The notes below the pieces were generated by a model that worked only from the letters and a program-made list of their open reading frames with translations, had not been told where the DNA came from and did not search any database. From contig NZ_QKOE01000026.1 in NCBI RefSeq assembly GCF_003226565.1, positions 1-42,423 of the forward strand: a DNA stretch of 42,423 nucleotides, written 5' to 3'. This document shows positions 15,363-25,111 of the stretch, piece after piece. This DNA comes from Parazoarcus communis SWub3 = DSM 12120 (lineage in GTDB: Bacteria > Pseudomonadota > Gammaproteobacteria > Burkholderiales > Rhodocyclaceae). Within the stretch, counting starts at the first letter, position 1. Each line of letters opens with the position of its first letter. The position numbers and the translations under genes were made by a program.

Positions 15363-17039
15363 TCAGTCGTCCACGGCAACCTCCACACCATCCAGCTTGG
15401 AGAAGGCCTCCAGCAGTATCGCGGTCAGTGCATGCATGGGCCCGAGCGCAGTCTCCGCGGGATACACACCCCTGATGAAACCGCGCTCACGCAAGGTCCG
15501 GCTCAGGCGCGCATTGGCACTGATCACATGCACCGGCACCTCCCAGTTTGCCCCCGGCCCCGTCACGCTGCCCACCGGCTGATGGTCGCCAACAATCACC
15601 AGCACCAGGTCGGGCGAGGCACGCTCATTGAGGTACTGAGCCAGCCAGGTCAGGGTGTAGCGCATGGACGCAACATACGCCGGTCTCGGATCCGACCACG
15701 ACACCGGCTCGGCAAGCACGGCAGCATGCGTAGCCGCATCGTAGGCATCGCTGTGCTCCAGTGCCGCCCAGTTGTCCACCCAGGGTGCAAGGGGCCGGAA
15801 CGGTGCATGCGACGAGACGGTAGGAAAGACCACAAACCGCGGCCGACCCGGCTGCTCACGCCCTGAATCGAACTCCTGCACATGCAGCAAGGCCATTGCC
15901 GCCTGATCGGGCACACGCCAGTAGCCAAAAGCCGGTCCGCGATACCCCAAGGTGTGGACATCGGCAATGCGCTCATAGCCGTAATAGGCACCTTCCGGCC
16001 AGGGCATCTGTAACCCGGGCATCCAGCCGACCGTGCGATAGCCATGACGGGCAAAGTGGCCGGTCAGCGTAGGTCGGTCGGACGCCAGCAGGGTTTCGTA
16101 GGTGCCGGCGGGCGCGGTATCCACGCCCGACAAAAGCGCCGAATGCGCCAGCCACGACCCACCCCCGAAGGTCGGCGAAACCACCCGTGCCGATACCACC
16201 TCACGGCCATCCCGGCGTATCGCCGCATCCAGCACCGCCCGCGCATCTTCCAGCTGCGCGGCCAGATCTCCATCATCCAGCGTGATCGCACCATAGGCTT
16301 CGGCAAAGAGCACAAGCACGTCCCCGCCGCCCAGCGCCGCAAGATCAGCGCGGGCAAAGGCCTCGACCGGGCTATCCGACAGCAGCAAGGCCTGGCGCGC
16401 CGGGGATACCGCATCGCGCCACTGCAGCACCGCGCGATGGACTGCCGGGGTCGCTGCATCAGCAAACAAGGGTCGCCCCTCGCGATCGAACCACGGCTGC
16501 CACATGTGGAACGCCACCGGCAAGGCCATGCCCGCGAGCACCGCCCACAAGCGCCCCCCACGCACCGACGAGAACCCGCCAATCCAGACCGCGCAGCACC
16601 GTACGATCAAGAACAATGCGGCGATCCCGAGCAGCACCGCACATCCGGTCCACAGCACCCGCGCGGCTGACTGCCCGGACCAGGCCATCAGCAACACCTG
16701 CCACGCATGCCGACCGTCCCAGTACAGGTTCACCGGCCGCCCCAGCACGGCCGGCACGGTAACGTCGATGTAACGCACCAAGACCAACAGCACGAACACT
16801 GCCGCCCATGTCGAGCACATACTGGCAGGTACCCGCCCGCGCAAGTGTGCGAAAACCACCAGACCTAGCACCAGCACGCAAGCCTCGGGCGCCAGTTGCG
16901 GCCGCAGCACCACCCCGATGCCGGGCCAGTCGTTGCCAAAACTGAGCAAGGCGTTGAGCAGCATCACGACCAGTACAAAGCCAAGCCAACCCAAAGATTG
17001 GACCACGGCGGCCGCACGGCTTCGACCTTCAGACCCCAT
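15363..17039 (-). CDS. Membrane-anchored sulfatase-fold hydrolase/transferase
   Basis: A 558-residue protein. Four or five membrane helices fill about residues 16-181. A periplasmic alkaline-phosphatase/sulfatase-superfamily domain follows. Expected metal-site elements are visible: VLVLFAEAYG (Glu247), FGGGSWLAH (Ser295 where LtaS/EptA-like enzymes use Thr as nucleophile), SSHAPF (His411) and IVGDHQP (Asp485-His486). Relatives move phosphoglycerol or phosphoethanolamine onto lipids or glycans. The substrate here is unknown. It is divergent from the creatininase/RibD pair and probably belongs to the same accessory cluster, perhaps as a tailoring enzyme of an envelope glycoconjugate. Confidence 0.8.
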   Translation of the reverse strand: MGSEGRSRAAAVVQSLGWLGFVLVVMLLNALLSFGNDWPGIGVVLRPQLAPEACVLVLGLVVFAHLRGRVPASMCSTWAAVFVLLVLVRYIDVTVPAVLGRPVNLYWDGRHAWQVLLMAWSGQSAARVLWTGCAVLLGIAALFLIVRCCAVWIGGFSSVRGGRLWAVLAGMALPVAFHMWQPWFDREGRPLFADAATPAVHRAVLQWRDAVSPARQALLLSDSPVEAFARADLAALGGGDVLVLFAEAYGAITLDDGDLAAQLEDARAVLDAAIRRDGREVVSARVVSPTFGGGSWLAHSALLSGVDTAPAGTYETLLASDRPTLTGHFARHGYRTVGWMPGLQMPWPEGAYYGYERIADVHTLGYRGPAFGYWRVPDQAAMALLHVQEFDSGREQPGRPRFVVFPTVSSHAPFRPLAPWVDNWAALEHSDAYDAATHAAVLAEPVSWSDPRPAYVASMRYTLTWLAQYLNERASPDLVLVIVGDHQPVGSVTGPGANWEVPVHVISANARLSRTLRERGFIRGVYPAETALGPMHALTAILLEAFSKLDGVEVAVDD

Positions 17040-17108
17040 TGGCGACGCTCACTTCCAGGTACACTCCTGTCTGCGGGATGATGGCGCCCCATCTGCGCGC
17101 CTTACGGA

Positions 17109-17140
17109 CCCACTCATCCCTTACCCCACTCATCCCTTAC
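17109..17140. repeat. Two tandem copies of a 16-bp unit
   Basis: CCCACTCATCCCTTAC occurs twice head to tail (17109-17124 and 17125-17140), followed by CCCACACC. It lies in the 235-bp region between the divergent sulfatase-fold gene and the creatininase gene. It could be a double binding site for a regulator of the cluster or simple slippage. No clear promoter boxes are recognisable in this gap. Confidence 0.6.
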
Positions 17141-17274
17141 CCCACACCTATCACCGGCCCCGGCACGATTGCCCGAAACCCGGGCATGCGGCCCATCACG
17201 GACTTTATCCACTCTAACGAAACTCGTGGTGCAATGACGCCTCCAACACCCCGATGTTCCCCGAGCCCCCCGTC

Positions 17275-18105
17275 ATGAGCCTGCCCGCACACCGTTACTG
17301 GTCCAATCTGAGCACCGAAGACATCCGCCAACGCGTCGGCCCTGCCACCGTTGCCGTGCTGCCACTGGCCGCCATCGAACAGCACGGTCCCCATCTGCCG
17401 CTATCGACGGACCTCGATATCGGAATGGGCCTGGCCGAGGCCGCATTCGCCCGTCTGCCTGCCGAGATCGACGCCCTGCTGCTCCCGCCCCTTGCGATCG
17501 GGCTCAGTCTGGAACATGCGCATTTCCCCGGCACACTGAGCCTGTCTCCCACCACCGCTCAGGCGGTGATTGCCGAGGTCGGTGGCAGTATCGCGGCGGC
17601 CGGCGTGCGCCGCCTGATCCTGTTCAACAGCCACGGCGGCAACAAGGCTGTCGTGGACCTGGCCGCGCTGGGCCTGCGTGCAACCCATGACATGCTGGTG
17701 GTACGTGCCAATTATTTCCGCTTCGCCCCGCCGGCCGATGCCCTTCCGGCACAGGAGCTGCGTCATGGCTTGCACGGCGGTGCGCTCGAAACCTCGATGA
17801 TGCTCCACCTCGCCCCCGCCAAAGTCCGCACCGACGCACTGGCAAACTGGTCCTCGCTCGGCTGTACCCTGGCAGATCATGACAGGCGTCTGGGCCCGGA
17901 GGGGGAAGCCGGTTTTGCCTGGCTGGCCGAAGATCTGAACCCTGCTGGCGTGACCGGCAATGCGCTCCTCGCCAACGCGGCCCTCGGCGCCCGCCTGGTC
18001 GAGCACTTCGCGGCGGTTCTGGCCGAGCTCATCCTCGACACCGCCCGCTTCGACCTGGCATGGCTGGGGTCCCGTCCGCAGGCAGACCAAGCCCGACAAC
18101 CCTGA
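17275..18105 (+). CDS. Creatininase-family amidohydrolase (ArfB/MftE-like)
   Basis: A 276-residue metal-dependent amidohydrolase. Family motifs are intact: AIEQHGPHLPLSTD (Glu/His/Asp metal ligands), FNSHGGN, and LHGGALETSMML with the catalytic-site His and Glu. The family includes creatininase, the archaeal ArfB that removes formamide from a GTP-derived pyrimidine in riboflavin/F420 synthesis, and mycofactocin MftE. Pairing with the RibD-type reductase 7 bp downstream mirrors the ArfB-ArfC steps, so a pyrimidine formamide substrate is a reasonable inference. An in-frame ATG at 17254 would add seven residues; neither start has a strong ribosome site. Confidence 0.85.
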   Translation: MSLPAHRYWSNLSTEDIRQRVGPATVAVLPLAAIEQHGPHLPLSTDLDIGMGLAEAAFARLPAEIDALLLPPLAIGLSLEHAHFPGTLSLSPTTAQAVIAEVGGSIAAAGVRRLILFNSHGGNKAVVDLAALGLRATHDMLVVRANYFRFAPPADALPAQELRHGLHGGALETSMMLHLAPAKVRTDALANWSSLGCTLADHDRRLGPEGEAGFAWLAEDLNPAGVTGNALLANAALGARLVEHFAAVLAELILDTARFDLAWLGSRPQADQARQP

Positions 18106-18112
18106 GGTGACG

Positions 18113-18985
18113 ATGAACTTCCCGCATGCCGAACCTGCGCTCACCCACACACTCCTGGGGCCGGACACCGCCTGGCGGCGGATCCTGCAGGCGCGCGATC
18201 ATGATTGGCAGCATACGCCACTGCTGGAAACGACCGAAGACGGCTGCGTGTTGCGGATCGAGCGCGGCGGCACCTGGCATGCCATGCCCGCGGCCAGCAC
18301 CGCGGCCCGCGAACTGTTCGATCTTTTCCTGCCCTTGGTCGCAGGCACCGGAGTGCGCACCATCGGCCAGTTGGGTCAGAGTCTGGACGGCCGCATCGCC
18401 ACCGAAACGGGGCATTCGCATTACATCAACGATCCTGAAGCCCTCACCCATCTGCATCGCCTGCGCGCCGTCGTCGACGCGGTGCTGATCGGCGTGGGCA
18501 CGGCCAACGCCGACAACCCCTTGCTGACCGTGCGCCACGTTGACGGCCCGCAACCCCGGCGGGTCATACTCGACCCGAATGGACGCATTCGTCCGGACCT
18601 GAGTCTGTTACATGACGGCACCGCACCGGTCCTGCTGATCCAGTCTCCCGCCTCAAGCCACGTGGCTCAAGCCTGCGCTCACCATGTGGAGCGCATCGTA
18701 CTGCCGCTCGAAGGTCGGGGCTTCTCGCCGACGGGCATCCTGGACACCTTGGCCGCACGAGGACTACATCGCATCCTGGTTGAGGGGGGCGGCGATACCC
18801 TGTCGCGTTTTGTTCAGGCCGGACGCCTTGACCGTCTGCACCTGCTGGTCGCGCCCCTGCTGATTGGCTCGGGTCGCCCGGGACTCTGCCTTCCCCCCAT
18901 CGACACCTTAGACAGCGCCCTGCGCCCAGTCAGTCGCAGCTATGCCTGCGGACGCGACACCATCTTCGATCTCCAGCTGCGCTGA
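18113..18985 (+). CDS. RibD C-terminal-domain reductase (ArfC-like)
   Basis: A 290-residue protein. About 85 unassigned N-terminal residues precede a complete RibD_C/dihydrofolate-reductase-fold domain: GQSLDGRIATETGHS, LRAVVDAVLIGVGTANADNPLLTVR, RRVILDPNGR, and ILVEGGGDTLSRF for NADPH binding. Related enzymes reduce the ribosyl chain of diaminopyrimidine intermediates from GTP. The deaminase domain of bifunctional RibD is absent. GAGGTGA is well placed before ATG 18113, directly after the creatininase stop, so the two are coupled. The stop abuts that of the converging gene at 18986. The substrate is inferred only by family. Confidence 0.85.
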   Translation: MNFPHAEPALTHTLLGPDTAWRRILQARDHDWQHTPLLETTEDGCVLRIERGGTWHAMPAASTAARELFDLFLPLVAGTGVRTIGQLGQSLDGRIATETGHSHYINDPEALTHLHRLRAVVDAVLIGVGTANADNPLLTVRHVDGPQPRRVILDPNGRIRPDLSLLHDGTAPVLLIQSPASSHVAQACAHHVERIVLPLEGRGFSPTGILDTLAARGLHRILVEGGGDTLSRFVQAGRLDRLHLLVAPLLIGSGRPGLCLPPIDTLDSALRPVSRSYACGRDTIFDLQLR

Positions 18986-19951
18986 TCAGCGCCGAGGTGG
19001 CAGAGCCTCGCCGGCCTGTGCGGCAAGCACCCCACCCCGCCGCAACAACAGCAGCCCACCAGGCACACTCGACAGCAGCACCACCACGCCGTAGACAAGC
19101 GACACCGCCAACCCCTCCGCGGGTGGCAGACCCGCCAGCAACCAGACCCCGGCGGCGGCCCCCTCACGCACGCCCCAACCCGCCATCGTCAAGGGCAGGG
19201 CCATCGCCAGCAGGACCGGGGGCAGCAACGGCAACAACTCGGCCAGCGGCCGCGCCACGCCGATCGCACGCGCACAGCAGACAAAAACCAGCACATAGCT
19301 CGCTGCCAGCAGCAAGGAGAGCACCAACTGCACCGCCAGCACATCGGGCTGGATCAGGGCTAGCTTCAAGTCCCGCCCGAAGGCCCGCAGGCGGGAACCC
19401 ATCCGCGCCCACCCCCATACCGCGCCGCCCAGCAGCACAAGCAGCAGCAACGCGCTCCCCGCGCTGGTCGTCACCCCATGCTCGATCACTGCCGCGCGCA
19501 GCGCCGGTGACGCCGCCACGCCCAGCACGGCAAGCAGGATCATGGCCAGTTGCCCGGAAAGACGCTCGATCAGCACCGCGTGCCAGGCCGCAGCGCCGGC
19601 CTGCTGCCAGCGCGCGTGCCTCCAGGCACGGCCAAGATCGCCTGCCACGCCACCGGGCAGCACCTGGTTGATGAAACTTGCCAGGTAGTATTCGCCCAAT
19701 GCCCGCCGCATCGGCAAGGCCATTCCCAAGCGCCCTGCGGTAAAGCGCCAGCGCCATGCGGACAGCACAAGCTGCGGCAACACCATCAACAGCGCGGGGG
19801 CCAGCCACCAAGGGTCAAGTGCAATCCGCGCCGCCTGCCAGCTCGCCCACACTTCAAGCGGGTCAAGCAGCCAGACCAGGCCCAGCAATAGCGCAGCGCT
19901 GATCAAAAGCCGCAAGCTCGCCCTCAGACGCAAGCGCAGCCTGTCAGTCAT
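18986..19951 (-). CDS. YbhN/lysylphosphatidylglycerol-synthase-like membrane protein
   Basis: A 321-residue integral membrane protein of the UPF0104/LPG synthase transmembrane family. About eight hydrophobic helices are seen, and the signature region ALGEYYLASFINQVLPGGVAGDLGRAWR lies near residues 85-112. The soluble aminoacyl-transfer domain of MprF is missing. Members without it are thought to handle or flip lipid-linked substrates. The ATG at 19951 overlaps the methyltransferase stop by 8 bp, so it is translated with it. A longer in-frame start at 20029 lies inside that gene and is unlikely. Confidence 0.82.
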   Translation of the reverse strand: MTDRLRLRLRASLRLLISAALLLGLVWLLDPLEVWASWQAARIALDPWWLAPALLMVLPQLVLSAWRWRFTAGRLGMALPMRRALGEYYLASFINQVLPGGVAGDLGRAWRHARWQQAGAAAWHAVLIERLSGQLAMILLAVLGVAASPALRAAVIEHGVTTSAGSALLLLVLLGGAVWGWARMGSRLRAFGRDLKLALIQPDVLAVQLVLSLLLAASYVLVFVCCARAIGVARPLAELLPLLPPVLLAMALPLTMAGWGVREGAAAGVWLLAGLPPAEGLAVSLVYGVVVLLSSVPGGLLLLRRGGVLAAQAGEALPPRR

Positions 19952-20879
19952 CGCTGCGCGTTGCAGGCAAGGCCAACACATCCACATGACCGACTTCAAT
20001 CCCCCCCGAACCGACCTCCATCCAGGCACGGCGGCGCCCCCCCCAGCGCCTTATCCCCTCGGCCTCGCCGGGTGACTGCTCAATCGCCGCATCCAGCCAG
20101 CCTTGCAGCAAGGCCAGTGCCAGAGCACGATCATCCGCGCGGTCCAGCGCCAAGCGCCACGGACTGGGCGCCGTCATCACCACCAACCCAAGCGTCTGAA
20201 GGTGGCGGACCAGGTTGGGCGCCGCCGCCGCACCCAAGGCCCCCTCCGGCCCCTTGTCGCGACGCTGATGCGCGTTGAACAAGGCGCACACCTTGTCATC
20301 GTCCGGATCGCTGACGGGCCTGCCGCCGGCGTCAAGGAAACGCCAGCCACCATCGACGCTCAGGGTCACCAGCAAGGCTGCGCCGGCTGCAGCAAGCTGA
20401 TCTGCGAGCAGCCGCAACCAGCGATCTCCCACCAGATCAATCAAGGCCGAGGCCGTCACCAGATCCATGCCGTGAAAGCCCTCGCCGACACGATCTGCAA
20501 GATCACCACAACGACTGGACACGATCGGCGTTCGCCCGGCTTCATCCGCCGCAGACGCGACACGCGTCGTCGCCCGGGCAAGCAGCGCGGCATCGTGATC
20601 GAACAGGTGCCAGTGCTGAGGCCCGGGTAGGCGCGGCGCAAGGTAGACCCCATTGGCCCCACTGCCCGTCCCCAGATCGATCAAGTTCAGCAGGGTCTGT
20701 CCGCCCGCCAGTCGGCGTCGCAGGTGCATTGCCAGTTGCTTGTCGAGCACTGCAGCCCGCGCCCGCCGATCTGCCTCGGCACGCAGGGCAAGCCAGCTGT
20801 CGGCAAAGACCAGACCGGGATCCGGCCCGGCGGCCTGAAGGGTGGCCCGGTGTGCCGGCTTGTGATCCGTCTGAGTCAT
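19944..20879 (-). CDS. SAM-dependent methyltransferase (class I fold)
   Basis: A 311-residue protein. A Rossmann motif I, LIDLGTGSGANGVYLA, at about residues 66-81 is followed by LFDHDAALLARA (motif II acidic residue). A later segment VTASALIDLVGDRWLRLL fits the motif near the active site. The substrate is not evident. It sits between the glycosyltransferase and YbhN-like genes with 4- and 8-bp overlaps, indicating one operon. It could modify the pterin/pyrimidine head, the sugar or the lipid of the proposed product. Confidence 0.8.
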   Translation of the reverse strand: MTQTDHKPAHRATLQAAGPDPGLVFADSWLALRAEADRRARAAVLDKQLAMHLRRRLAGGQTLLNLIDLGTGSGANGVYLAPRLPGPQHWHLFDHDAALLARATTRVASAADEAGRTPIVSSRCGDLADRVGEGFHGMDLVTASALIDLVGDRWLRLLADQLAAAGAALLVTLSVDGGWRFLDAGGRPVSDPDDDKVCALFNAHQRRDKGPEGALGAAAAPNLVRHLQTLGLVVMTAPSPWRLALDRADDRALALALLQGWLDAAIEQSPGEAEGIRRWGGRRRAWMEVGSGGIEVGHVDVLALPATRSDD

Positions 20880-22060
20880 ACCCCCTCCAGGATGGAGTCG
20901 AACGCCGCTGCCACCTGCGTCCAGCCGCGCAGATGGATGCGCCGCTGGCGGGCACCCGCCCTCAGTCGTGCGCGCAGCGCCCCATCTGTCAGCACAAGGC
21001 GCAAGGCCTCGGCCAAGGCATCGACATCCCCTGGCGGAACCAGCAGGCCCGCCCCTGCCGGCACGGTCTGCGCCAGCGCCCCGCCTCCGGTCGACACAAT
21101 CGGCAGGCCATGAGCCAAGGCTTCGTCAATCACCATGCCATAGCCCTCATAGAACGACGGCAACACAAAGACATCGGCCCCGGCATAGGCAGCCGTCAGG
21201 GCTGCATCGTCCAGCTCTCCAACAAAATCGACGCGCCCGGCAAGCCCGAATGCCATCACCAGTGAACGCAAATGGTTGGCGTGATCGACGTCGCGCTCGG
21301 CACTGCCGACACAGTTCAGGTGCCATTGCAGTCCGACCATGCCGGCCAAGGCCCGCAGCAACACCTCATGCCCCTTGCGCCGGGTCAGCGTCGCGACGCA
21401 CAGCAAACGGGGCGGTTGATGATCGGCAGCGGCGCAGGGTGCCGGCTCGACACCGGGCTCGACAACAGCGATGGGCACCTGAATGGATCCCGGACTCGAG
21501 GGGTGTCCAGCCCCCGGATCCAGCCCCGCATCAGCACCCATGTCAGACCCGGCGCGAGGCCCCGCACTTGAGCGATCTCCAGACGATGCGCGCGGCGTCT
21601 GCCGCTGCACGAGGCCCATCGCCGGGGCATGGATGCTCGCCAGCGTACGCAGACGGCGTGCGGTAAAGTCGCTGGTGGTGATCACCAGCCGGACAGCCTG
21701 TAAGGCCTTGAGCTCGCGCTGATGCAGTTCCACCGCCTGGGTCTCATCCAGCCCGGTCTCGTCTCCGAGCGGGTGATGCACCAGCGCGATCAGACGAAGG
21801 CGGCTGGCATGGTTGTGCGCGAGTTCGGGCAGTCCGCCCAGGGCCAGGCCATCAACCAGTACCCTGGCGCCGTCCGGCTGCGCACGCAACGCCGCATCCA
21901 TTGCGGCACGCGCCTGCTCATCGACCTGCGGAAAGGTACCGTCCAGCTCGCACACCTGCACCTGCCAGCCACGGGCGCGCAGCCCGTCAAGGAGCCTGGC
22001 ATCGTATCGATAGCCACCGGTGCGCTGATTCAGCGCACCGGGCACGATCAGCGTCAGCAC
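20876..22060 (-). CDS. GT4-family glycosyltransferase
   Basis: About 394 residues with a GT-B fold. The N-terminal part (LTLIVPGALNQRTGGYRYD) is the acceptor-side domain. The C-terminal nucleotide-sugar domain has LLCVATLTRRKGHEVLLRAL and the diagnostic E-x7-E stretch FYEGYGMVIDEALAHGLPIV. It transfers a sugar, probably from a UDP or GDP donor; the acceptor is unknown. A longer frame to 22429 is a shadow of the PTPS gene. GTG 22060 is preceded by AGGTGA; GTG 22069 is an alternative. A low-complexity Ser/Gly/Pro-rich insert lies in the middle (about 21,500). The end overlaps the methyltransferase start (ATGA). Confidence 0.85.
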   Translation of the reverse strand: MLTLIVPGALNQRTGGYRYDARLLDGLRARGWQVQVCELDGTFPQVDEQARAAMDAALRAQPDGARVLVDGLALGGLPELAHNHASRLRLIALVHHPLGDETGLDETQAVELHQRELKALQAVRLVITTSDFTARRLRTLASIHAPAMGLVQRQTPRASSGDRSSAGPRAGSDMGADAGLDPGAGHPSSPGSIQVPIAVVEPGVEPAPCAAADHQPPRLLCVATLTRRKGHEVLLRALAGMVGLQWHLNCVGSAERDVDHANHLRSLVMAFGLAGRVDFVGELDDAALTAAYAGADVFVLPSFYEGYGMVIDEALAHGLPIVSTGGGALAQTVPAGAGLLVPPGDVDALAEALRLVLTDGALRARLRAGARQRRIHLRGWTQVAAAFDSILEGV

Positions 22061-22082
22061 GGGCCTCACCTGGGGATTCCGC

Positions 22083-22481
22083 TCACAGACGGCCCTCGTA
22101 GCTGGCCCAGGCGATGTGCGACTCATGCAGGCAGACCTTGATGGCCTGCAAACCGCGCGCGCCTTCGCCAAGCGCCCCTGCCCGTACGGCTGCGGCGACC
22201 CGCTCGAAGATGACCCGCGCCATGAACTCGGTGGTGGTGTTCTTCCCGGCAAAGGCCGGCTCATCATCCAGATTGCGGTAGTTGAGGTCGGCCAGCAGGC
22301 TACGCAACACCTCGCCAGCGCGGCCGATATCCACCACCAAGCCATCGTCGTCCAGATCCTCGCGCTGGAAGCACACATCGACGACGTAGGTGGCACCGTG
22401 GACGCGCTGCGCGGGGCCAAAGATTTCACCGCGAAAACTGTGGGCGATCATGATGTGATCGCGAACATTCAGGCTGTACAT
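22083..22481 (-). CDS. Divergent 6-pyruvoyl-tetrahydropterin synthase / QueD-family protein
   Basis: A 132-residue T-fold protein of the PTPS/6-carboxytetrahydropterin synthase family. Family landmarks remain: His14 (IAHSF), His28 (VHGATY), the DGLVVDIG segment, NTTTEFMA, and Glu120 (HESHIAW), which would anchor the pterin. The catalytic apparatus does not. The Cys before HGH is lost (PAQRVHG), the third zinc His is Ala30, and the Asp-His of LDHxxLN is Asn67-Tyr68. It therefore probably does not catalyse the QueD or PTPS reaction. It may bind a pterin or pyrimidine, or perform different chemistry. It lies in an operon with a dehydrogenase and a glycosyltransferase. Confidence 0.85.
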
Positions 22482-22541
22482 GAAGGCTTCCTTGTTCGGG
22501 GAATAATGAAGAAAAACAGGGGCGGAGATCCGCGACAGACA

Positions 22542-23558
22542 TCAGTCACCCGCGTCCGGCGTCGACGGATAACGCACACGGTGGCACAGGGTGGACGCAC
22601 CTTCGGCCAGGATGAGCGGCATCTGCGCAGGCAGTTGAAAGAAATCCGACTCACCACTGAACAGCGCATCAAGCCGGGTATCCAGCAGCAAGGAAAGCGC
22701 CAGCCCCAGGCGTCGACGGTAATCCCAGCGCGGCCGGCGCAGCGGCGGAATGGAGCCAACCTGGCTCGAGCGCAAGTTCAGACGACGTACATGAAACGCC
22801 TCACCAAGCGGCAGACACACTGACTGCGCACCGTACCAGCTCATCTCCAGCACGGTCGCCTCTGCTCCTGCCAGGCCCAGCGCGGTATCCAGTCCTGCCG
22901 GGTGGCCACTGGCATGGATCACCAGATCACATTCCGACGGCGCGGCTTCAGGCCGGCAGAAATCCACGCCCAACGCGTGGGCGATGGCGGCACGCGTGGG
23001 ATCGACATCAACCAGACTGACCTCGGCGCCCGGTATCCGGGCGCACAGAAAGGCCACCAGGCAGCCAACCACGCCCGCACCAACGATCACGATACGATCG
23101 CCCACTGCCGGCGAGGCATCCCATAGCGCATTGACTGCCGTCTCCATATTGGCGGCGAGCACTGCCCGCCCCGCAGGCAAGCCGGCAGGCAAGGGCGTCA
23201 GCGCCGTAACAGGCACCACATAGCGGTGCTGGTGCGGAAACAGGCAGAACACCTCGCGCCCAAGTCGGTCCGGCGTCCCCTCGCCCGGCAGGCAGGATCC
23301 AAGCGCTTCGACCACGCCAACGCTGGCATAACCGTATTTCACTGCATCGGCAAAGTCACCCTGCTGAAAGGGTGCCCGCATGCGCTGATGCTCGCTCGGC
23401 GGTATGCGCCCATTGAACACCAGCCGTTCGGTACCACGGCTGATGCCGCTGTACAAGGTTCGCACCCGGGCCTCACCGGGTCCGGGCTCGGGCAGAGGCT
23501 CGGCACGGATTTCGCCGCGGCCGGGGACGAGGGTCCAGAAAGCATGGGTCAGACTCAA
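22542..23558 (-). CDS. Medium-chain dehydrogenase/reductase (zinc-binding alcohol dehydrogenase type)
   Basis: About 338 residues with an N-terminal GroES-like domain ([15 protein letters not shown]) and a Rossmann domain with [16 protein letters not shown]. The catalytic-zinc Cys and the structural-zinc Cys cluster are not evident. This resembles BchC/threonine-dehydrogenase-like members that start SGIS-x-GTE. It likely oxidises or reduces an alcohol side chain with NAD(P). The frame opens at 23684, but the family N-terminus begins near the TTG at 23558, which has CGGAG nine bases upstream; I use that start. It is probably the first gene of the minus-strand operon ending at 18986. Confidence 0.82.
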
Positions 23559-23708
23559 GGCACTGAACTCCGGAGCGTGTTGCCGGCCTAAGCCGGAAAG
23601 CTGGTAGCGTATGACGAAGCAGCGTGAAAAGCACGCTTGCGCTCGGAGCAGGGCGTGAACCGAAGGGTTCCCTGCACCATCCACTGTTTTTCGACGAGGC
23701 CCGCCATC

Positions 23709-24503
23709 GTGCGCTCACCCGTATCACCTCGCCCCCTTGCCACGCACCAGATACCCGCATGGTTTGCATTGCTGCTCAGCATCCCGCTGACGGGGGGGCT
23801 GGTGCTTGCATTCGGGGGGCTGATCGACCTGCCGCATGCACTGCTGTGGCCAGCAATGGGGGTCCAGACGGGAATTGCGCTCGTCATCGCGCTGAGCTGG
23901 CGGCATCCTGGCCAGACGCTGGGGGCCGCCAATCACATCACCCTGCTGCGCGCCACCCTGGTGTCGATGGTGGGCGGCATGGCACTGCTGCCCGCTGCCT
24001 TGCCGCAGGCCGCAACTGCGCTGGCCGTCGTCAGCCTGCTTGCACTCATGCTCGACGGCGTCGATGGTTGGGTCGCCCGGCGAACCGGCAGTGCCAGCCC
24101 TTATGGCGCCCGCTTCGATATGGAGCTCGATGCGCTGTTCATTCTGCTGCTGTGCATCGTCTTGTGGCTGCTGGGGCGGGCAGGCGCCTGGGTCGTGCTG
24201 ATCGGAGCCATGCGCTATCTCTTCGTGCTTGCCATGCAAGCCTGGCCCTGGATGAATCGCCCGCTGCCCGAAAGCTTCCGGCGCAAGGCGGTTTGCGTGG
24301 GACAGATCCTTGCACTGCTGGTGTGTCTGCTGCCGCTCCTGTCGCCGGTGCTGACGACCGCCTTGCTGGCAGCCGCGCTGGGGGCTCTAAGCCTGTCCTT
24401 CGGCATCGATGTTGCCTGGCTGTACCAACATCGCAGCACATCAATAGCCGGCAGACACGACGGCAGCACCACGCCCAACCCAAGCCAAGGAGTCCAATCA
24501 TGA
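23709..24503 (+). CDS. CDP-alcohol phosphatidyltransferase
   Basis: About 264 residues with several membrane helices and a perfect family signature D-x2-DG-x2-AR-x8-G-x3-D-x3-D, read in the segment [13 protein letters not shown] continuing through GARFDMELD. These enzymes join a CDP-activated alcohol to a second alcohol, as in phospholipid headgroup synthesis. GTG 23709, after GAGG, is the likely start; an ATG at 23637 is possible but its extra residues are not family-like. Its stop overlaps the yceI-like start (ATGA). It is divergent from the dehydrogenase operon, which suggests a shared control region. Confidence 0.85.
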
Positions 24504-25111
24504 ACACCCTTCCCCTTCCCCGTGTTCGCCAGACCCTGCTGCTGGGGGCGCTGCTTGCCAGCCTGGGCGCCATCAGTGCGCAAGCCGCCCCAGCCAGTTA
24601 TCGGATCGACCCCGAACATCTGTCGATCGCATTCCAGGTACGTCATGTCGGCTACGCCGACGTGATCGGCTTGTTCCTGAAGGCTGAGGGCGAGTTTCTG
24701 TACGACGAGCACACACGCGAACTGAGCACGGGGCGCTTCGTGGTCGAGGCCGACAGCGTGTTCACCAATCATGATCGCCGAGACCGCCACCTGCGCGACC
24801 GCGACTTCCTGCAGACCAGCCGCCATCCCAGGATCGTTTTCGAAGCCACTCGTTACCTTCCCGGCGATAACGGAAAGGGCAGGCTCGAGGGCAATCTGAC
24901 CTTGCTTGGGCAAACCCACCCCGTCGTGCTGGAAACCACCCTGAACAAGTCCGCCGCCTACCCCTTTGGCCACCGCAAGCCCACGCTCGGGATCTCGGCG
25001 CGAACCACCTTGCTGCGCAGTCAATGGGGTATGAACTATGCTTTGAAAGACGACATGGTGGGCGACGCAGTGGAGATGCGATTCGAGTTCGAAGCGATCC
25101 GTCAGGATTGA
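24500..25111 (+). CDS. YceI-family periplasmic lipid-binding protein
   Basis: A 203-residue protein with a cleavable signal peptide (hydrophobic core LLLGALLASLGAI, likely cut after SAQA near residue 29). A YceI lipocalin-like barrel follows: SYRIDPEHLSIAFQVRHVG, FLQTSRHPRIVFEAT, GRLEGNLTLLGQTHPV. Family members bind polyisoprenoid or other amphiphilic ligands in the periplasm. The start has AAGGAG at 24487-24492 and overlaps the CDP-alcohol transferase stop. The pairing suggests it carries or stores the lipid product made next door. Confidence 0.9.
   Translation: MNTLPLPRVRQTLLLGALLASLGAISAQAAPASYRIDPEHLSIAFQVRHVGYADVIGLFLKAEGEFLYDEHTRELSTGRFVVEADSVFTNHDRRDRHLRDRDFLQTSRHPRIVFEATRYLPGDNGKGRLEGNLTLLGQTHPVVLETTLNKSAAYPFGHRKPTLGISARTTLLRSQWGMNYALKDDMVGDAVEMRFEFEAIRQD

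Follow-up and report, generated by a model that had tools for sequence, protein, structure and literature searches.

The 42,423-nt contig NZ_QKOE01000026.1 (assembly GCF_003226565.1) of Parazoarcus communis SWub3 = DSM 12120, a member of the Rhodocyclaceae, carries at positions 15363-25111 a cluster of genes gathered around a homologue of 6-pyruvoyltetrahydropterin synthase (PTPS); the whole contig is referred to here as the window. The cluster is real and widespread, and it has no description in the literature searched. On the minus strand, genes for a dehydrogenase, the PTPS homologue, a GT4 glycosyltransferase, a methyltransferase and a YbhN-like membrane protein form a run with a 60-bp gap between the dehydrogenase and PTPS genes and overlaps thereafter of 8 bp (PTPS/GT4), 4 bp (GT4/methyltransferase) and 8 bp (methyltransferase/YbhN; Table 1). 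On the plus strand, a creatininase-family gene precedes a RibD-type reductase gene by 7 bp, and the end of the latter abuts that of the YbhN gene. The initial annotation had described the five-gene run, the creatininase/RibD pair on one strand and, at the flanks, a CDP-alcohol phosphatidyltransferase with a YceI protein (their genes overlap by 4 bp) and a membrane sulfatase-fold gene; all of these are present, with corrected gene starts. GTP cyclohydrolase II (GCH2), OpgH and MdoG have no gene in the window.

Table 1. Cluster features in the window, with one gene from another contig of the same genome. "Linked" is the number of the 26 other sampled Pseudomonadota clusters in which the gene accompanies PTPS.
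Feature	Position	Strand	Group	Linked	Remarks
Membrane sulfatase-fold protein	15363..17039	-	accessory	5/26	PF00884 24.9 bits, just below cut-off 25
Creatininase-family hydrolase	17254..18105	+	accessory	6/26	PF02633, 3.8e-64; ArfB/BrbF-like role proposed
Creatininase/RibD junction, 7 bp	18106..18112	+			GCH2 sits here in relatives, e.g. L014, L058
Stand-alone RibD C-terminal reductase (RibD_C)	18113..18985	+	core	22/26	PF01872, 6.4e-38
YbhN/LPG_synthase_TM family membrane protein	18986..19951	-	accessory	11/26	
Class I S-adenosylmethionine methyltransferase	19944..20879	-	core	24/26	
GT4 glycosyltransferase	20876..22090	-	core	25/26	GTG start assumed; overlaps PTPS
PTPS homologue, SCO6650/3d7j family	22083..22481	-	core		motif FGPAQ..HGAT
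Medium-chain dehydrogenase/reductase (MDR)-type dehydrogenase	22542..23552	-	core	26/26	start uncertain, open reading frame begins at 23684; weak BchC likeness
CDP-alcohol phosphatidyltransferase	23637..24503	+	accessory	12/26	PF01066, 1.5e-19; start uncertain
YceI family protein	24500..25111	+	accessory	4/26	PF04264
Own GCH2 (L001), 370 aa	contig C150, 1393-2502	-			unlinked to the cluster in this genome

Co-occurrence of the cluster genes

A scan of a species collection with the window's PTPS returned at least 495 relatives, of which the best 80 were used as loci, from genera that include Thauera, Methyloversatilis, Halomonas, Streptomyces, Micromonospora, Amycolatopsis, Variovorax and Nisaea. 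Sampling 398 genomes evenly across Pseudomonadota gave 27 with a PTPS match at E<=1e-15, the window's own included, leaving 26 others. A gene is called linked when it lies inside the fetched stretch, about 10 kb on each side of PTPS. Profiles were made from the 80 species-collection loci, and profile matches in those loci are therefore by construction; several of these loci, as well as L128, L141 and L145, are interrupted by contig ends, and neighbour families beyond those named were read from 13 representatives only.

In the 26 sampled clusters, the profiles found linkage of the core partners of PTPS in between 22 (RibD reductase) and all 26 (dehydrogenase), with lower counts for the accessory genes (Table 1) and for further families: OpgH in 12, GCH2 in 11, FkbM in 8, cytochrome b561 in 7 and MdoG in 6. 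Among the 80 best of the at least 495 relatives, blastp found the dehydrogenase and GT4 in 80 each, the methyltransferase in 78, the CDP-alcohol transferase in 68, YbhN in 66, RibD in 64, GCH2 in 62, creatininase in 53, YceI in 22 and the sulfatase-fold gene in 19. Fourteen arbitrary control windows (L260-L273) searched with 15 profiles gave zero matches, and the linkage far exceeds this background. Of the six control windows selected for another PTPS or RibD gene, three (L254, L255 and L258) matched none of the 15 profiles, L256 matched RibD and L259 matched PTPS, as expected from how they were picked, and L257 turned out to hold a diverged cluster itself and was removed from the controls. 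Distance correlations between the genes range from 0.64 to 0.95; co-transfer and common descent could both give such values, which are not counted as proof.

Presence of the cluster is patchy. Eight of 200 Burkholderiales genomes match the PTPS at E<=0.001, the window's own included and four of the others strongly, and none of the five listed genomes of the same family, Rhodocyclaceae, does. Copies also reside on plasmids (L250-L253: pOB3b1 of Methylosinus trichosporium OB3b, a conjugative plasmid of Neorhizobium, pTs417 of Thiodictyon, where transposase genes flank the cluster, and p1 of Streptomyces fungicidicus), and PTPS matches occur in 19 plasmid records. Two loci from metagenome-assembled genomes titled Gemmatimonadetes and Natrialbaceae archaeon (L023, L025) encode a PTPS 70-71% identical to the window's and are likely to be misbinned contigs.

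The neighbourhood extends to a second phylum. Among 296 Actinomycetota genomes, 25 match the PTPS (centre genome G577 included), nine of them closely (at least 49% identity) and 16 more weakly; regions were fetched for eight of the nine, with G577 read as L036, and for 12 of the 16, leaving out G796, G732, G850 and G807. The close regions L230-L235 carry a near-full set, and a 3.8-kb contig (L237) carries GCH2, RibD, YbhN, GT4 and PTPS. In Streptomyces, the SCO6650 family, named after its S. coelicolor member, stands in this same neighbourhood, on S. fungicidicus p1 and at L036, L069, L071, L073, L078 and L092. The co-occurrence that the initial annotation had proposed as a check thus holds across Pseudomonadota and Actinomycetota. 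In one Streptomyces region (L036, from ~15402), genes resembling ornithine cyclodeaminase, an FAD oxidoreductase and saccharopine dehydrogenase, as read from the sequence, follow the cluster.

Besides the window's version, called type A, two diverged versions exist. The type B PTPS (L238-L249, n=12) is 37-46% identical and has the motif FGPA.R.HGHT, with HGH in 12/12. RibD, dehydrogenase, PTPS and GT4 are present in 12/12, and GCH2 is linked in 1/12; 11/12 carry a methyltransferase from a different family, and the twelfth locus stops at a contig end. FolB adjoins RibD (in L242, GCH2) in all 12; it is a pterin enzyme and so speaks for a link to pterins, unless it is a housekeeping gene, as it could be. 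An acyltransferase-like gene with a weak OlsF match adjoins FolB at 6516-7400 of L239, and L248 has a similar protein. The third type (L257, G140:C28, 6895-12177) packs RibD, dehydrogenase, PTPS, methyltransferase, CDP-alcohol transferase and GT4 into 5.3 kb, its PTPS having 26% identity. The same genome carries L009 (G140:C105, from ~1501), where a 28-residue type A PTPS N-terminus is in frame with GT4, as if the rest of PTPS had gone.

Active sites and enzyme families

The best solved relative of the window PTPS is SCO6650 (PDB 3d7j), with E 2.7e-55 over residues 1-130; the next, a PTPS (1b66), follows at 0.0041. SCO6650 is reported to have neither zinc nor PTPS activity. In 81 type A sequences the motif reads FGPAQ..HGAT. 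The third zinc His is replaced by Ala (HGA) in 81/81, and at the place of the catalytic Cys an alignment puts Phe and counting back puts Ala, in 81/81 either way. The Asp-His pair of QueD, the reference used, reads Asn (96%) and Tyr (54%). Glu120, which we take to be the anchor of the pterin ring, is invariant in all 81. Judging from these residues, the PTPS homologue should bind a 2-amino-4-oxo ring and should not perform PTPS chemistry; the family's action on dihydroneopterin triphosphate, invoked in the initial annotation, is unlikely to apply here, as the catalytic residues are absent. Identity with QueD is ruled out, since the genome has two other PTPS-family genes and the key residues are missing.

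The initial annotation had also expected a GTP cyclohydrolase outside the window, possibly as a GCH2 paralogue linked to the cluster in relatives, and this is borne out on both counts. Methyloversatilis, Thauera and Halomonas have a GCH2, mostly of ~370-400 aa, between creatininase and RibD, as do many relatives a linked copy; the window's own genome has L001 on another contig, which rules out that GCH2 was lost. In a FastTree phylogeny of 117 tips, some genes appearing twice, L001 has L022 as its nearest neighbour (support 0.85); one node deeper, eight cluster GCH2s from Thauera and Methyloversatilis join (0.73), and the node after that brings in a tenth (0.96). L001 retains the six residues checked against E. 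coli RibA, namely the three Cys, Tyr105, Asp126 and Arg128. The RibB-fused GCH2 of the same genome (L002) lacks the Cys, and a third paralogue, L003, presumably of the URC1 type, has all six. Where the sampled cluster has no linked GCH2 (15 cases), a full-length cluster-type copy lies farther off in four genomes (G465, G215, G384 and G561, in the last ~14 kb away on the same contig), one (G283) has a copy truncated where its contig ends, and six have a domain-only match. A full-length cluster-type GCH2 is also found in the Nisaea genome G579, and no match to one in the Comamonadaceae genome G580.

The window reductase lacks a deaminase domain, as RibD_C is its sole Pfam match. In the creatininase family, the motifs EQHG..LPL.TD, N.HGGN and H.G..ET, presumably metal-binding, are retained in at least 90% of 54 sequences. 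The NCBIfam ArfB model leaves the window protein unmatched and reaches one actinomycete member at 36.6 bits, against a cut-off of 180. The initial annotation had made the creatininase an integral part of the set; with linkage in 6 of the 26 sampled clusters, it is ruled out as a core gene. In the actinomycetes, the 22 loci with GCH2 fall into 14 with Met (13) or His (1) at residue 105, a creatininase and no RibD, and eight with Tyr105, RibD and no creatininase, one of which (L237) lies on its 3.8-kb contig, where an absence says little. The Met-type GCH2 SCO6655 reportedly makes a formylated product. The idea that creatininase and RibD replace each other on alternative routes to a single intermediate fails to account for the Met-type clusters without RibD. 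In Pseudomonadota, Tyr-type GCH2, creatininase and RibD often stand together.

The dehydrogenase belongs to the MDR proteins (PF00107 below cut-off), and SRGTE is conserved in at least 95% of its own family; zinc-dependent MDR members usually have Cys at this position. The methyltransferase has no Pfam match at E<=0.001 and a weak Methyltransf_25 match at E<=0.01, as do 47/50 family members; structures of class I methyltransferases are the ones that its model (pLDDT 92.2) resembles. GT4 and methyltransferase share one reading frame in 24/110 cluster loci, which Pfam confirms in the one checked (L126), and GCH2 and RibD do so in 1/110 (L062, Pfam-confirmed). A second occurrence of the former kind is seen in type B, where GT4 is fused with the different methyltransferase family in 4/12 loci. 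Given these fusions, the head, sugar and methyl steps appear to belong together.

The envelope-side genes might serve phospholipid chemistry in part of the lineages. The CDP-alcohol transferase contains D-x2-D-G-x2-A-R-x8-G-x3-D-x3-D, found by eye and presumed to be the catalytic motif of its family, and scores below the cut-offs for PgsA, PssA and PIP synthase. The sulfatase-fold protein has membrane helices and an alkaline-phosphatase-type domain with Glu, Ser, His and GDHQ retained at metal-site-like positions. It has no sequence match to any solved chain; its predicted model (pLDDT 89.6) is most like MCR-1, a Vibrio alkaline-phosphatase-superfamily protein and LtaP/LtaS, at TM-scores of ~0.3-0.5, with true sulfatases from rank 12 and BcsG at rank 18. 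The sulfatase-fold gene is accompanied by the CDP-alcohol transferase in 23 of the 25 loci that have it, and matches to both lie in one frame in 2/110 (L040, L087), Pfam confirming the CDP-alcohol part and a custom profile alone the sulfatase-fold part. OpgH, a synthase of periplasmic glucan, is encoded in the fetched region in 12/26 sampled clusters, in 25/80 of the species-collection loci (the best of at least 495) and in 3/4 of a further set; one member is confirmed as MdoH by NCBIfam. It stands beside the dehydrogenase gene in divergent orientation in L132, L133, L137-L139, L142, L144 and L148, is adjacent and divergent on the Methylosinus trichosporium OB3b plasmid, and on the conjugative Neorhizobium plasmid lies 2 bp upstream of the dehydrogenase gene on the same strand. 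OpgB is a phospholipid head-group transferase.

A proposed pathway and its alternatives

Together, these features suggest that the cluster probably directs the biosynthesis of a glycosylated, methylated compound of pyrimidine or pterin type from GTP. Going by family membership, GCH2 (unlinked in the window's genome) would open GTP to 2,5-diamino-6-ribosylamino-4(3H)-pyrimidinone 5'-phosphate; in streptomycetes, the Tyr-to-Met GCH2 would be expected to leave the formyl group on, and the creatininase-family protein, like BrbF, to remove it. The RibD-type reductase, again by family, would convert the ribosyl to a ribityl chain. The PTPS-fold protein, with its Glu anchor kept, and the dehydrogenase may then remodel the head or side chain, as their active-site residues suggest, before, in the presumed order, a sugar would come from GT4 and a methyl group from the methyltransferase, two proteins that are often fused into one. 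Where the accessory genes are present, the CDP-alcohol transferase could put the product on a phospholipid and YbhN help to move it, after which the sulfatase-fold enzyme might pass the phospho-head-group to an envelope acceptor, possibly periplasmic glucan. This last step, drawn from neighbourhood, fusions and fold, is the least certain. Its full form, a pterin- or pyrimidine-headed phospholipid, is on balance unlikely: here the CDP-alcohol transferase would couple the glycosylated, methylated head to diacylglycerol phosphate, YbhN would help it across the inner membrane, and the sulfatase-fold enzyme would hand the phospho-head to periplasmic glucan from OpgH or another envelope acceptor. 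The common pathway of the initial annotation stands in part: the head, sugar and methyl genes do co-occur and fuse, whereas the substrate given to PTPS is unlikely to apply and the creatininase is not a core member. The OpgH link and the fusions go beyond what that annotation had described.

Several points weigh against the biosynthetic reading. No ring-closing enzyme was identified in the cluster, and each accessory gene occurs in less than half of the 26 sampled clusters. GCH2 is linked in just 11 of the 26, and four genomes (G449, G571, G292 and G451) have no cluster-type GCH2 at E<=1e-10; their PF00925 matches, and that of G580, are non-intact copies or, in G292, a fragment and, in G580, a URC1-like paralogue. 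L001 is the only GCH2 of its genome with the six residues besides the URC1-like paralogue, and for that reason it probably also serves riboflavin. The Met-type clusters have no RibD, which tells against a universal reduction step; the cluster GCH2 of Pseudomonadota, L001 among them, retains Tyr, and a deformylase is not obviously needed there. One actinomycete region (L236) has only the dehydrogenase, PTPS and a weak GT4, and the region on the conjugative Neorhizobium plasmid is without RibD. The loci are also phylogenetically non-independent, and some species may be in both genome sets. As to the genomes without a cluster-type GCH2, the four belong to the window's phylum and to a different class, and are on that ground probably alphaproteobacteria. 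Apart from the URC1-like one of G580, neither these four nor G580 showed a GCH2 whose zinc and catalytic residues are intact. According to PMC9478397, the cyclohydrolase of bacteria that have BrbF still awaits discovery, and such an enzyme may account for the four.

Could GCH2, the creatininase and RibD instead be an auxiliary riboflavin branch, a BrbF-like module that supplies extra precursor, with the rest an unrelated glycosylation operon? All three families include riboflavin enzymes, PMC9478397 provides BrbF as a precedent, and the genome's sole intact GCH2 other than the URC1-like paralogue is the unlinked one. However, a separate RibD of 417 aa, bifunctional by sequence, is encoded elsewhere in the genome, and RibD is linked to the dehydrogenase, PTPS and GT4 in 22 of the 26 sampled clusters and in 12/12 of type B. 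Moreover, own-genome RibB, RibE and RibH used as blastp queries (E<=1e-5) had no match in the 110 cluster loci, 20 actinomycete regions or the window, with one query each and distant forms possibly missed. Such a branch is improbable.

A tetrahydrobiopterin-like glycoside has a similarly low standing. Pterin glycosylation is known in cyanobacteria, and a route in that style would have PTPS act on dihydroneopterin triphosphate, the dehydrogenase stand in for sepiapterin reductase and GT4 glucosylate the pterin. The PTPS family, the retained Glu and, in type B, the HGH zinc motif and adjoining FolB agree with it, but type A lacks the third zinc His as well as the catalytic Cys, which is not in the matched type B motif either. 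The linked cyclohydrolase is of type II, no search aimed at GTP cyclohydrolase I having been made, and that pathway is not known to employ a RibD-type reductase, which counts against it. There is a slim chance that the genes form a loose island with no common product, brought together by horizontal transfer and by their place on the chromosome close to opgGH and yceIJ. The patchy presence (27/398, own included, and 0/5 in the listed same-family genomes), the plasmid copies and the closeness of opgGH and yceIJ to one another in E. coli fit such an island, and the partial sets of L236 and the Neorhizobium region give it more weight and the pathway less; against it stand the gene fusions, the overlapping reading frames and a core that persists in three diverged versions and two phyla.

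A pathway from GTP to a decorated pyrimidine or pterin would mean a unit conserved in two phyla or more, both chromosomally and on plasmids, and would give a setting to the orphan PTPS homologue 3d7j. Methylosinus trichosporium OB3b, Halomonas and Streptomyces offer hosts in which to look for a GTP-derived, glycosylated, methylated and possibly fluorescent compound. Were the lipid part true, a new kind of head group would be added to the bacterial envelope; in the phospholipid form, the envelope glycoconjugates would gain a new class that is redox- or light-active and of which Gram-negative and Gram-positive bacteria each have versions.

Comparison with known systems

All enzymes of the cluster belong to known families, and their combination is without description in the open PubMed Central literature; no account of cluster or product was found there, which, as only open papers were covered, is weak evidence. 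In the archaeal ArfA/ArfB/ArfC steps of riboflavin synthesis, a RibD-type reductase acts on a GTP-derived pyrimidine. BrbF is characterised, in PMC9478397, as a creatininase-family formamidase that deformylates a formylated pyrimidine in riboflavin synthesis. The cluster shares with these systems a creatininase-family protein, here a putative deformylase, and a RibD-type reductase that would work on a GTP-derived pyrimidine; here, in contrast, the two are joined to a dehydrogenase, a PTPS-like protein, GT4 and a methyltransferase, and the cyclohydrolase is of the GCH2 family.

The PTPS-I, PTPS-II and PTPS-III classes of COG0720 are described in PMC5041015. The cluster PTPS shares with them (PTPS-I being QueD) the sequence family and the pterin-binding Glu, whereas type A differs in lacking the catalytic Cys and the third zinc His and in its gene context. 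Much closer is SCO6650, a Streptomyces coelicolor protein that the PDB labels "uncharacterized protein" with no pathway attached, and which has in common with the window PTPS a full-length match and the altered motif FGPAQR.HGAT. On the envelope side, the sulfatase-fold protein resembles the head-group transferases LtaS, EptA-MCR and BcsG in predicted fold and in the retained Glu, Ser, His and GDHQ; unlike them, it is linked to a CDP-alcohol transferase, with which it lies in one frame at two loci.

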